A stretch of DNA of 64,000 nucleotides, taken from positions 1-64,000 of the forward strand of contig WFMF01000544.1 in assembly GCA_011033025.1 (NCBI GenBank), written 5' to 3'. Each line of letters opens with the position of its first letter. Positions within the stretch are counted from its first letter, which is position 1. Below the pieces are notes generated by a model that saw nothing but the letters and a program-made list of their open reading frames with translations, ran no database searches and was not told where the DNA came from. This document shows positions 1,552 through 61,500 of this stretch, one piece after another. Origin of the DNA: Beroe forskalii (taxonomy: Eukaryota > Ctenophora > Nuda > Beroida > Beroidae). The position numbers and the translations under genes are program-made.

Positions 1552-4500
1552 CTGTCAAGAAGAAGGAAGGTCAAACCATGTAGATCGGTTCTTCGTAAAG
1601 TGGCCTTTTTCAACCAGTCTCAAACTTACTAAACTTGCATTACAATGAACACTACATTCCCATATGTGTGCAGTGTACACATGTATCAATCGATGAAGGA
1701 AATGATGACGACGTGCATTTTGCAGTGCGCGCAACTTACTTATCAAAGAATTTGTCGAAATGTAGACGTTTTATCGATTGATCCATGTGCACACATGGGT
1801 AACACATGGGTAACAACGTAACTCACCTGAGGCAGGTTATCTCGGAGGGCTGGAGGTTGTCTGATCGCTCAAAGGAAGTGTACATCGTCAGTCTAGCCCG
1901 CATTATCAACTTCTTCTGCCACCTGAGTTAAAGAAGTAATTGATGGCAGACGCCGGATATTCCTTACCAATCGTTTTTTACCACTCGTTTTTGCCAAGTG
2001 TCTATTGAGCGGCATCAAATTTATCATGTGATCAATAGACGTCTCTTATATAGGAAATCAAGAAGTCGACCCTTGTTACTCCATCACAAAAAGTTATGAA
2101 TTGGGAATGCATTCATTCCATCAAAACAATACGTTATATTATGATCTGCAAGTGTCTCTACGGACCTCTCATCGGCTGTTTTCTGGTACAGCAGACCCCA
2201 AATCCTAACAATCCCATCACTTGACCCTGTCACCACCACGTTATTGTTATCCCATTCGTTTACTGTAGTCTGCGTGCAAACCTGAGGAAATACGTGTAAT
2301 GACGAATACGTTGACCAGATTAAGAATCAATAACAACAATATGTTCCTTAAAACTTAATTTGACAACAATTCTAAGGAAGTGAGAATTCTCGGTGATCAT
2401 TGATCGAAAATTTGATTGCCATATAGATCATTATCTCTAAAACTAATTTGGGTTAAATAGACATGAACTACAGCCTGTGCCACTACAGTCTGTACTGTGT
2501 TTTGAAGCTTAAAATAATGTTTGGGTACCTGAATGTTGGGTTATAACATTGGGTACCTGAATGTTGGGTCATAATGTTGGGTACCTGAATGCTGGGTTAT
2601 AATGTACCTGAATGTTGGTGAGTGTATTGAGTGTTGTCTGAGCCAGCAGGTCTCCGTTTATAGACCACATGTACAGACTGTTCTGTGCGGCGGAGATTAT
2701 CTCTCCAGACAGGTCGTTAATGTGCACTGTCGTCAGTCTGAGGAGAGAAATCTGTTTAATGTGGACTGTGGTTAGTCTGGTTAGTCCCGTTGCACTCAGG
2801 CATTTGACTGTCAAGGACGTGAAATCAATAAGAATTTAAATACACAAAAGATCAAAATCTACAATTTATAATCGATTACCTGGTTGGGTGAACAGAGAGT
2901 TGTCTCACAAAGGACAGAGTGTTGAGATCCCACAGAATTACTGTCATGTCAGCCGAACCAGATACAAACACTCTGAAACAATCCAAAGTTAGACATTTAA
3001 TAGTTATATTAAGCATTGATGTCTTGAAGGAATCATCTTATAAATTTCTGAAAGAGTCCCTAGAGGTTCGACAAAATTCTAAAAGAGACGGTTAATAAAA
3101 AGACATAAGTTGAAAGTGAGAAGGTTTCGAATGGTGTGACCAAAGAGAGTTTGCCCACTGGAAGGTATGCTAACTCACCTTATCAATATCATTCTTTATT
3201 CTTTGGATTGTTAAGAATTTTAATAATTTCAATAGTGAGTTATAACCCGAGACTCTGACACCACTTCTACAATCCACCGAACCTGTGGTTATCAGAAGAA
3301 CTCATGCAGTTGACAGCCTCGCGATGTCCAAACAACTTCCTCCGTAGCTTCAGTGCCGCGTCCTTACTCCGCGCTAACGCGTGACCGTACACGCTGATGT
3401 AGCTGTGGGGAAGAAGAGAATGAGAATACAAGAGAATGAGGAGAGCAAGAGAATGAAGAGAGCAAGCGGAAATATCTTACACATTACACAAGCACCAGTC
3501 AACCTTAAATATTTATCATAATCATCCTGAATATTCCTAGTGTTCAAGAAGTTGAAGTTTAAACGATATAACTGATACGGTAGTGTTGTGAATTGTGATC
3601 AGTTCAGGTATTAGAAATCTAGAATTATGATTGGTTCATATGCCAAACCTGTGATCCCCGGCAACCAATAGCGTCTCAGCATCTGGACATATGACGCACA
3701 TCACGCGCTGGTGTTCCAGAGACTCGTACACGTGCAGGGTTTTACCTGATGAATAAGTCACAGTAATTACAGGGTTTTACCTGATAAATCATATTTGTTA
3801 CAATAGCGCAATTATTACTTTATTTAAAAGAACCACGCCGTTTTTATTTTGAGCTGTATGAGAAAATAAACTAAAAACTCTCATTTAAATCATGTGACTC
3901 TTGAACTTGAGAACTTGAAGCGATTGAAATAAAATGTTCTTTACCTTCCACAGTCCCGAGAAGGAGGGAGTTGTCGGGTAGACCCCACGTGAAGAAATAG
4001 TGGTATCCGGGCGAGAAAGGGGGGTTAGGACTTGCTAACTGTTAAATGGCCCTTGGAAAGGAGTGGGGTCAGGCGTTAGAGCAAGGTACTTTGGTAAGTT
4101 AGGGCTCGGAAGTAAAAGGGGTTTGAAATAATTCGTGTACTATTCGTACACGCAAACTAACAGAGCTGAATGAATTTCTGACAGAGACAGGATCCATGGA
4201 CCATCCCTCACTTCAAAAGACTATATTTTAGGAACGTATTTAAATTTTAATGAAGTAAAATTAAAACCAAATATTTGTGTTTTCCTCCATTTTCTTCTCC
4301 AACTCACCCGGTTGGTGACGGCACCAGCACCTTATTCTTCCCTGCAAACAGAGTCCCACCCTGGTCAGTAGCTTCTATCTGCTGGACAGGAGAGGAAATG
4401 ATTCTCTCTTCTTTTAGCGGAGGCCGGAGATTTACTACGTTGTAGTGGAATGTTCGGGTGACCAGAGGGGATTAGTTTCCAGGGTTACAAGAGGGGATTA

Positions 4501-58500: not shown

Positions 58501-61500
58501 GTGGACACAGAAGTGAAACTAGAAACTGGAAGTGCCGAAGCGGGGGGAGGGGGTAACTGTTTAACTGACATTCATCGGAACACTATATACCGACGTTGCT
58601 GCTGCTGCAGCAACTTGCAAGTTTAAGAAACAGAGAATTTTTGTCCGGTATCGGAACTATATATTTAGTGAAACAGGAAGGGTCCCCACTAAGATTCCCA
58701 CGAGATTTACCACCTGTCAATTGAGTTATTTACTTCATGAGACAAGCTACGATAGTGAAAACAGTGCTTTGATGAATGCACGCAAACTGTGCAGCAGAAA
58801 GTGAAGTCATTTTCATGACTATTTATGGTAATTTGTTGTAGTCAATTCGCTGAGATAAATCTCAGTTCTCACCTTGAATCTTAAGCTCTATTCTGGAATC
58901 TATTCGGGAATTAAACTGAAAACTAACCTGGAATCTAAACTGTGCAGGTTGAAACACTAACCTGGAATCTGAACTGTGCAGGTTGAAACGCAAGGAAGAG
59001 TTCACAGAGACAGTCCAAGATGTCAAGCTTCATTTCTGTAGCGTGAGGGTTCTCTTGCATGGTTCGTAGCAGACAACCAATGTCATCTTGCTCAGTTGTG
59101 TCCTGCAGGCCAAACTATAACATCATATTACAGTTGAAACGGGTATAGAGATTAAAATAATGGAATAAAAGGACAACTTAAGGAATTAAACGAGTCTGGA
59201 AATTAAGGAATAATACGAGTCTAGAAGTTAAGGAATAAACGAGTCTATAAATTAAGGAATAAAACGAGTTAAGAAATATCAAGGATTCAAACGAGAAATT
59301 TCATTGAATATGTGGAAAATATTATGCTACTCGATTGTCGAGTACCTACTTATATAATCCTTGATAATAAAGATCTGCAAACAATATGAAAACACAAGGA
59401 AATGTCTTATCTGTGTACCGTATAAGTTGACAGGGTCTTTATCACCAGTAAGGAGTAAGACCGGAATATCTGCACGTGTAACATGTCGTAGAGGAAATCT
59501 CGGGCATGTAGCTCAGTGTAGCTGAGGAAAAGATAACGAATTAACTCAGTTGTCGCCACCTCTGAGATAGGTGTCTGAAATTTCCACAAAACCGTCTTTT
59601 GTACGTACGTGATACTGATTTAACAGCTTATCCACGTACGTGCATGGCCCCGCGCGATCGGAAATTTCAGAATGATTCTCATTTCTCGAAGTGGCGACAC
59701 CTGCGTAAGCCTTCTCTCGAGCCCTGCGAGGGCGTTGCACGCTCGGCAAGTGACATCCCGGACATGCCCGGGAAACGGGTTCAATCAGGGAAGGAAAAGA
59801 GAGAAAAAGAGCCAAAAAGGTTTTAACTGGGATAAAGCAGAAGACAGAATGAAAGTGAATTTTGGGAGTGAATTGGGGGTAAATTGGGCATTATAATTAT
59901 TTGGGTTGAATTGGGCATGATATTCTCCACGAACCTAACGTAAGCAGGAAAGCAGTTGTCCAGCATGGTATTGAGAGTTGTCATCAGCATGCCCAAGTAA
60001 TTCTCATCTATTGGATCATCTGAAATTAAATTGAGATTAAATTGACATGACTTCTATAATATCACAACGTTTCAACACTAATTTCTCAGCATCAACTAAT
60101 TTTTGATCCGCCTCAAATATAAGATCGATTTTCTGGACAGTTCAATGTTCATCACCTATTTAAACGTGACCTAAAAAATAATATGTCGTTCTTTCAGAAT
60201 ATTAGTTCATATCGAATATAATTATAAACTTCATCCCGAACCTTTCTTAGACAGCTGAAGGAGCTGAATCTGACAGAACTGTAGGCTGTTCAGGAGACCT
60301 AACTGTAGCAGTGTTTCCTTGAGGCTCGGATCAGCCGTTATCTGACAAGGTGTGTTTTGTAGCATTTGCTGCCAAACTTTGTCAAATTTCAATGAATAGG
60401 TTAGTTGATTAATGTAATCCAGTTTGTCGATTTAATGATTAACCGATGAAATAAGTTAACCAATTACCAGCTAATTGATAGCTCTATACCGTTAATTACC
60501 AGTTAATTACAATTTAATTACCGGCTAATTACTAGTTAATTGCCAGTTGATTAAGAGTTAATTACCAGCTAATTACCGGTGAATTACCAGTTAATTACTC
60601 ACCAATTTGTTGATAGTAGCGAGGATTAGGGAAGCCAGCTCGAACCTTGGGGAATCCTTGAGGAGGATTATCAGGGTTTCCAGCTCCGTGGAAGGAATGT
60701 ACTGGAGAATAAACACTGTGTGTTCGATCATCTTCAAGATGCGTTCCTGAGGTTATATCACCATGACATTGACCAATCAGCGCACGAGGGTACGACCAAC
60801 CTGTGCGCTGATTGGTCAATGTCAAAAGAGCCTGTGGGTAAGCTAATACGTTACGTTGCACCGTCGTATGCTGATTTCAGGCAGTTAATGCGGCCACGTT
60901 CCTGTACTTTGAACGTTGACTTGAGCAGGGAGTCTGATATCATACATTGTAATGTGTTGTGACAGCAGAGGATGAAGTAGTTGACATCGTCAAGCCTGGA
61001 TATATATATTTTAGCAAGGGGAAAAAGAATAGCTTTTATTGCTTTGTTGTGAGATTAAATCTCAAATAAAATTTCAATTGAAACAATTCTTTAGAAGCTT
61101 CATTCAAAGATTCAAAGACATAAACTGTTGCTGCAGATTTCAGGATGTCTATTATTTGTTAATCTCATAAGGAATTCATAATTTCCCAAGAGTAAGGAAT
61201 ATTAGACATTTTATAAACGTCTAACGACATAAATGATTTAAATAATAGGGCACTGACAATGGCGCATTTTGATTTTCTCGAGAAATTCATGACCTAAGGA
61301 CCGGACAAAACCTTTTATCATGATTGCTAAGTTGCCCAATGCTATTATATCTCGCATTGCAATTATTCTACTTACAATAATTCTACGATGTAAGTGCTCT
61401 AAGCAAGAATCATTTCTACAGAATACCATTAGCTAGTTGACCCATAACACTTACTGGATCCCCCAAATCGAGTGCACAGTATCGAGCAAATACAGCGCGT

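Follow-up and report, generated by a model that had tools for sequence, protein, structure and literature searches.

The first 64,000 nucleotides of contig WFMF01000544.1 (C630) of the Beroe forskalii assembly GCA_011033025.1, which comprises 216 Mb in 1134 contigs, are referred to here as the window. They contain a WDFY3 gene encoding a BEACH domain on the minus strand and, within its span on the plus strand, a gene for a G protein-coupled receptor (GPCR). A first-pass annotation of the window had reported that exon edges of both genes repeatedly lie inside local direct duplications that copy the edge together with its splice site. We describe these copies, compare their positions with random placement in WDFY3 and in the dynein heavy-chain genes of the same genome, and weigh how they may have arisen.

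Gene models at the WDFY3 locus

The WDFY3 protein is 92% identical over the aligned part to the relatives P0001 and P0003 and 78% to P0002, and its matches with named animals show about 36-55% local identity (among the best 120 of 1406 matches). When the BEACH exon was compared with protein chains of solved structure, neurobeachin and LRBA were the two strongest of three matches, and a tblastn search with this exon against plasmids gave no match. The GPCR is recognised by the Pfam Srw family with 34 bits (cut-off 22.2) in a hand-joined translation, and its exon edges have no homology-based exon model behind them.

Exon edges of WDFY3 were placed by spliced alignment to a profile built from full-length WDFY3 proteins of other animals, without the coordinates of the first-pass annotation and with an aligner restricted to GT or GC donors and AG acceptors. 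Exon support is best at about 1.4-13.8 kb, moderate up to 27.4 kb, and weak beyond. The alignment ends exons exactly at 2608, 2737, 3745, 9556, 15567, 19068, and 58962, of which 15567 and 19068 bound weakly conserved exons and 58962 is seen only under a laxer intron penalty. The edges at 4462, 5972, and 9662 were set by hand from P0002 and P0003 with the earlier coordinates in view, and the exons at 30097 and 40956 were not recovered by the WDFY3 homology model.

Duplications at exon edges

Local duplications were collected by ungapped self-alignment (match +1, mismatch -1.5, threshold 14). At lags of 15-300 bp the window holds 456 pairs, compared with a mean of 0.8 in five Markov-shuffled windows, and at lags of 15-400 bp it holds 512 pairs that merge into 60 loci. 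Of the 17 edges named in the first-pass annotation, 16 lie inside or at most 2 bp from a local direct duplication, which confirms that the copies are real and far above the shuffled background (Table 1). The edge at 50009 was rejected as a case, as its only pair is 20 bp long, scores 12.5, and starts 5 bp inside the exon.

Table 1. Duplicated exon edges in the window, with the distance to each copy and the state of the splice dinucleotide.
Position	Strand	Edge and copies	Lag (bp)	Splice dinucleotide	Basis of the edge
2521..2618	-	WDFY3 donor 2608, array of a 28-bp unit with copies of ATTCAG/GTACC	51, 79	GT kept	homology model
2717..2779	-	acceptor 2737 and upstream copy	39	AG kept	homology model
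3735..3789	-	acceptor 3745 and upstream copy	35	AG kept	homology model
4456..4511	-	acceptor 4462 and copy	26	AG in neither (TG and TT)	set by hand, P0002/P0003
5806..5999	-	donor 5972 and intronic copies	39, 84, 142	GT in all	set by hand, P0002/P0003
9409..9580	-	donor 9556 and copy	143	GT changed to GA in copy	homology model
9651..9734	-	acceptor ~9662 and upstream copy	65	AG in upstream copy only	set by hand
15547..15698	-	acceptor 15567 and upstream copy	105	AG kept	weakly conserved exon
18995..19428	-	acceptor 19068, 107-bp unit in about four copies, of which unit 74 bp are exonic by the model edge		AG in all	weakly conserved exon
26995..27122	-	acceptor 27016 and copies (absent from the first-pass annotation)	34, 94	AG lost at 34, kept at 94	weakly conserved exon
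30058..30119	-	putative donor near 30097 and copy (CTGTGAGT vs CTGAGAGT)	32		exon not recovered by homology
40933..41104	-	putative acceptor 40956 with its copy	103	AG kept	exon not recovered by homology
47516..47657	-	acceptor 47537 and upstream copy 47644	107	AG in both	weak model, adjoins implausible 19-bp intron
58919..58989	-	donor 58962 and copy	34	GT kept	weakly conserved exon
47982..48104	+	GPCR putative donor near 48007 and copies	43, 78		Pfam Srw GPCR call
49555..49650	+	GPCR exon start (49624), copied upstream from 2 bp inside the exon	71	splice site not in copy	self-alignment
50196..50346	+	GPCR putative donor near 50211 and copy	109	GTGAGT in both	self-alignment

At the supported WDFY3 edges the copies reach 7 to 74 bp into the exon, and the lags at the listed edges range from 26 to 143 bp. 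Joint copying of exon edge and splice site applies to several WDFY3 edges, whereas 50009 offers no such copy and the one at 49624 carries exon sequence only. The site at 47644, previously called an acceptor, is indeed duplicated and has an AG, but the weak model places the acceptor at 47537 and makes 47644 its intronic copy. The mixed fate of GT and AG that had been described is borne out by the aligned copies, which represent several stages of decay. The splice dinucleotide persists in every aligned intronic copy at 2737, 3745, 5972, 15567, 19068, 40956, and 58962, and it has been lost from the copy at 9556 and from one of the two copies at 27016. Each junction copy also adds to the length of its intron, as had been proposed. 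Some copies could act as decoy splice sites: lags divisible by three occur at 2737 (39), 5972 (39 and 84), and 15567 (105), and the reading frame is open up to the copy at 2737 (open reading frame 2569-2835) and at 5972 (5798-6097) but not at 15567.

Chance matches between splice-site consensus and low-complexity sequence would produce some resemblance among edges, since the consensus is common to junctions in general. The copies extend well into the exons, and the shuffled windows yield fewer than one pair per 64 kb at the threshold used (0.8), so that we give chance practically no weight. Another concern is the assembly, in which collapsed or misjoined haplotypes might create repeated edges, given that repeat-rich sequence is hard to assemble and the genome is split into 1134 contigs. 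Most copy pairs, however, differ by substitutions, and the pattern recurs in several genes and on both strands, which makes an artefact very improbable.

Duplications of this kind are not special to the window. Five other stretches (C630 beyond the window, C197, C914, C142, and C183; 197 kb in total) contain 3.3-10.8 duplication loci per 10 kb with 9-41% of bases in copies, and the window contains 9.4 loci per 10 kb with 11% of bases in copies. The most covered stretch, C630 beyond the window, includes a 100-base run of N that adds little to its count. Elsewhere, two dynein copies on C441 contain a repeated unit of 86 bp that joins the last codons of an exon to a donor of the GGTAAGTT type, with about seven units in L049 (C441:52800-54000) and three in L050 (C441:59900-60700). 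These arrays were selected via repeated family-search matches and are examples that enter no count. The window also holds two 11-bp minisatellite arrays (55368-55604 and 55697-55966), about 90 bp apart, the consensus unit of one being the reverse complement of that of the other.

The edges have a close counterpart in the amphioxus "mirages", minisatellite-like tandem duplications across exon-intron boundaries (PMC3087553). As reported, mirages occur in the genes for Adh3, the globins BflGb6 and BflGb9, PGBD5, and troponin C, and their units measure 10-72 bp for Adh3 and 150-160 bp for a globin, with further units of 157, 60, and 108 bp (PMC3087553, PMC3902484); the 60- and 108-bp units overlap splice sites in lancelet PGBD5 (PMC3902484). 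AG or GT is described as present in many but not all copies, reverse transcription PCR is said to suggest that regular splicing is undisturbed, and the mirages were proposed as a route to new introns (PMC3087553). The WDFY3 and dynein edges share this anatomy: units span the boundary, lags at the edges listed in Table 1 run from 26 to 143 bp, copies number from two to several, and AG or GT is retained in part. The comparison differs in that it concerns another animal, the present WDFY3 being 39% identical to that of B. floridae over 36% of the query (among the best 120 of 1406 matches), and in that junction matches were counted here against random placement.

We consider it likely that mirage-type minisatellite turnover, blind to junctions, explains the edge copies. 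Short segments (about 20-160 bp) would be duplicated locally across the non-coding DNA of the genome, with replication slippage or break repair as the probable mechanism. A duplication within an exon would mostly be purged by selection because it changes the protein, and a duplication at an exon edge may survive if splicing still uses a copy with which the exon stays intact. The surplus copy of the edge would then become intron sequence, lengthen the intron, and decay. Junction copies would presumably remain recognisable for longer because one of the two copies is coding and constrained, and the matches seen at junctions would thus be the tolerated, well-preserved fraction of a process without preference for them.

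Junction hits and random placement

The WDFY3 junctions were evaluated in a set of 29 exons at 1.4-27.4 kb, comprising 55 junctions scored with a 2-bp margin. The edges at 4462, 5972, 9662, and 10177 were set from relatives, and 2150 was set and then left out; a 28-bp gap within 12974-13823 was merged, the end of the last exon came from the laxer-penalty alignment, and the weak exons at 1119-1133, 14059-14155, and 17994-18052 were removed. Three of the 58 edges (1431, 27410, and 2150) stand outside the junction count, and exons above 27410 were excluded from the statistics as weakly conserved. Long arrays were defined as loci of eight or more pairs, and a match at 6071 was counted at the loosest margin only.

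For replication, dynein heavy-chain matches to the AAA_6 family were used, which come from the same genome and were not chosen for duplications. From 86 matches the best 20 were taken, of which three are intron-free references (L029-L031, in no count) and 17 merged into 12 stretches; introns under 30 bp were dropped. The references contain intron-free dynein heavy-chain frames of 3715 (C1024, L031), 3010 (C534, L029), and 1583 residues (C26, L030), and their paralogs are intron-rich. BEACH paralogs were rejected as a replication set, as the matches in C197, C183, C142, and C914 yielded few introns.

Local duplications cover 11 of the 55 WDFY3 junctions, where the coverage of introns (15.5%) would predict 8.5 (binomial p 0.22, shift p 0.09). 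With a 6-bp margin, seven junctions are covered and 7.4 are expected with the long arrays or 3.8 without them. In the dynein genes, duplications cover 7 of the 114 junctions, compared with 8.3 expected, and 4 remain when long arrays are removed (5.3 expected). Taken together, a local duplication lies at about one junction in ten (18 of the 169 examined). Of the 20 dynein loci, 6 lie on a junction (7.4 expected under random placement of each locus, p=0.88), as do 17 of the 45 pooled loci (13.1 expected, p=0.10). Coverage at threshold 14 reaches its maximum 20-40 bp inside the introns (31% in WDFY3 and 10% in dynein), is 18% and 7%, respectively, in the first 10 bp of the intron, and falls to 3-4% at 20-40 bp inside the exons; in all, coverage at that depth in exons is about 1-4%. 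Hits at junctions therefore resemble the fringe of a duplication background that fills the introns.

An alternative is that splice junctions are preferred targets of duplication, for instance through repair or transcription-linked breakage with a preference for AG/GT sequence or exon edges; the first-pass annotation had suggested such a repair bias. Several observations in WDFY3 agree with targeting and weigh against a junction-blind process. Once the long arrays are removed, 11 of the 55 junctions are covered, compared with 4.7 expected (binomial p=0.006, shift p=0.0008), and 11 of the 25 WDFY3 loci fall on a junction, compared with 5.7 expected under random placement (p=0.011). Coverage within about 160 bp of the WDFY3 exons also exceeds that of the deep introns, much less so in dynein, and duplication or its survival is consequently not uniform along the WDFY3 introns. 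The dynein sample itself, being the best-scoring 17 non-reference matches out of 86, favours longer exons. Two premises of the junction-blind reading are likewise exposed: undisturbed splicing is assumed, and in most two-copy cases the shared sequence is shorter than the lag, so that a head-to-tail origin is something we infer.

Set against targeting are the absence of an excess among the 114 dynein junctions and 20 dynein loci, a coverage peak that does not lie at the junction itself, and the fact that the window was reported because of the pattern. The placement comparison recommended in the first-pass annotation thus separates the two gene sets, with WDFY3 loci above random and dynein and pooled loci not, and the named edges, as junction hits, are weakly above chance in the window and not in the dynein genes. 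Because dynein shows no excess and coverage has no peak at the junction, a special attraction to junctions is not supported, and we regard targeting as improbable. The leftover excess in WDFY3 can be accounted for by selection of the window for its pattern together with a presumably slower decay of pairs that have a coding member.

Introns with matching ends

Intron gain by duplication has usually been argued from single cases. In a potato RdRp gene, an intron was reported to have been gained by a tandem duplication that crosses an intron-exon boundary and supplies the splice signals (PMC4974935). As in the present case the duplication crosses the boundary, but the new intron in potato is described as shown against relatives, whereas here the extra copies lie inside existing introns and a few intron ends are suggestive.

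The two ends of 84 introns were compared in splice register with the consensus positions excluded, and the expectation was taken from mismatched pairs. A score of at least 4 was found in 6 of the 84 introns (3.0 expected), of at least 5 in three (1.0 expected), and of at least 7 in one (0.13 expected); of the best three introns, two are in dynein C489 and one in C790. Without a fixed register, a score of at least 10 was found in 7 of 83 introns (3.0 expected) and of at least 14 in three (0.07 expected). One of these three reflects a trivial overlap within an 87-bp intron, and the others are the C580 intron in two gene copies. In this dynein intron, the start of the next exon is repeated after the exon end CTGACAG, and the acceptor is tandemly copied. 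On C489 (C489:147226-150396, L047), a GC-donor intron at local positions 1279-1507 opens with bases that agree with the beginning of the exon after it, and the end of another intron there copies the preceding exon end. On C790, the intron and the following exon both start with GTGCTA. These matches are suggestive of a few dynein introns having been born by duplication. Shared intron positions in dynein (23 of 57 at the same column as another) were rejected as evidence of gain, as gain and loss are not separable there.

In two unusual WDFY3 introns, conserved codons are joined only at non-GT/AG ends. The intron at about 9662-10177 has AAATG at both edges. The intron 4462-5972 has a GTGAGT donor but a TG acceptor, with TCTGGT at both edges. 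For both introns, the GT/GC-AG solutions of the aligner drop codons that are conserved in relatives. A likeness may be seen to the larvacean Fritillaria, for which it is reported that 95% of introns escape GT/AG (PMC13326754), as these two introns have non-GT/AG ends and carry a short repeat at each edge. In contrast to Fritillaria, GT or GC donors and AG acceptors, the only ones that the aligner allowed, fit the conserved codons at most introns modelled here.

One may ask whether duplications across junctions actively generate new introns and shift splice sites in this lineage, either by Rogers-type gain, which PMC3087553 cites, or by the junction-crossing variant known from potato. Under this reading they would be common enough to provide introns and relocated splice sites continually; the C580, C489, and C790 introns would have been born in this way, and both odd WDFY3 introns would have splice sites that eroded among decoys and are still removed. 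The matching ends in dynein and the surplus of high scores over expectation in both comparisons speak for it. On the other side, the numbers are small and the matches short, the splice sites of C580 are ambiguous, and the junction copies in the window extend existing introns and make no new one. We consider this reading unlikely, and intron gain, which had been proposed for the window, is no more than suggested.

Mirage-type turnover, a phenomenon already described in lancelets, fits the present edges without any special attraction to splice sites. With a local duplication at about one junction in ten, a figure set against random placement, such a genome would allow the fate of junction copies to be counted. 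It also calls for caution: attention goes to splice sites and the decay of exonic copies is probably slower, so that junction copies seem striking even where they occur roughly as often as chance would place them.

Opposite WDFY3, the plus strand at 15020-15127 matches the SNORD90 family with 41.8 bits (gathering score 41).

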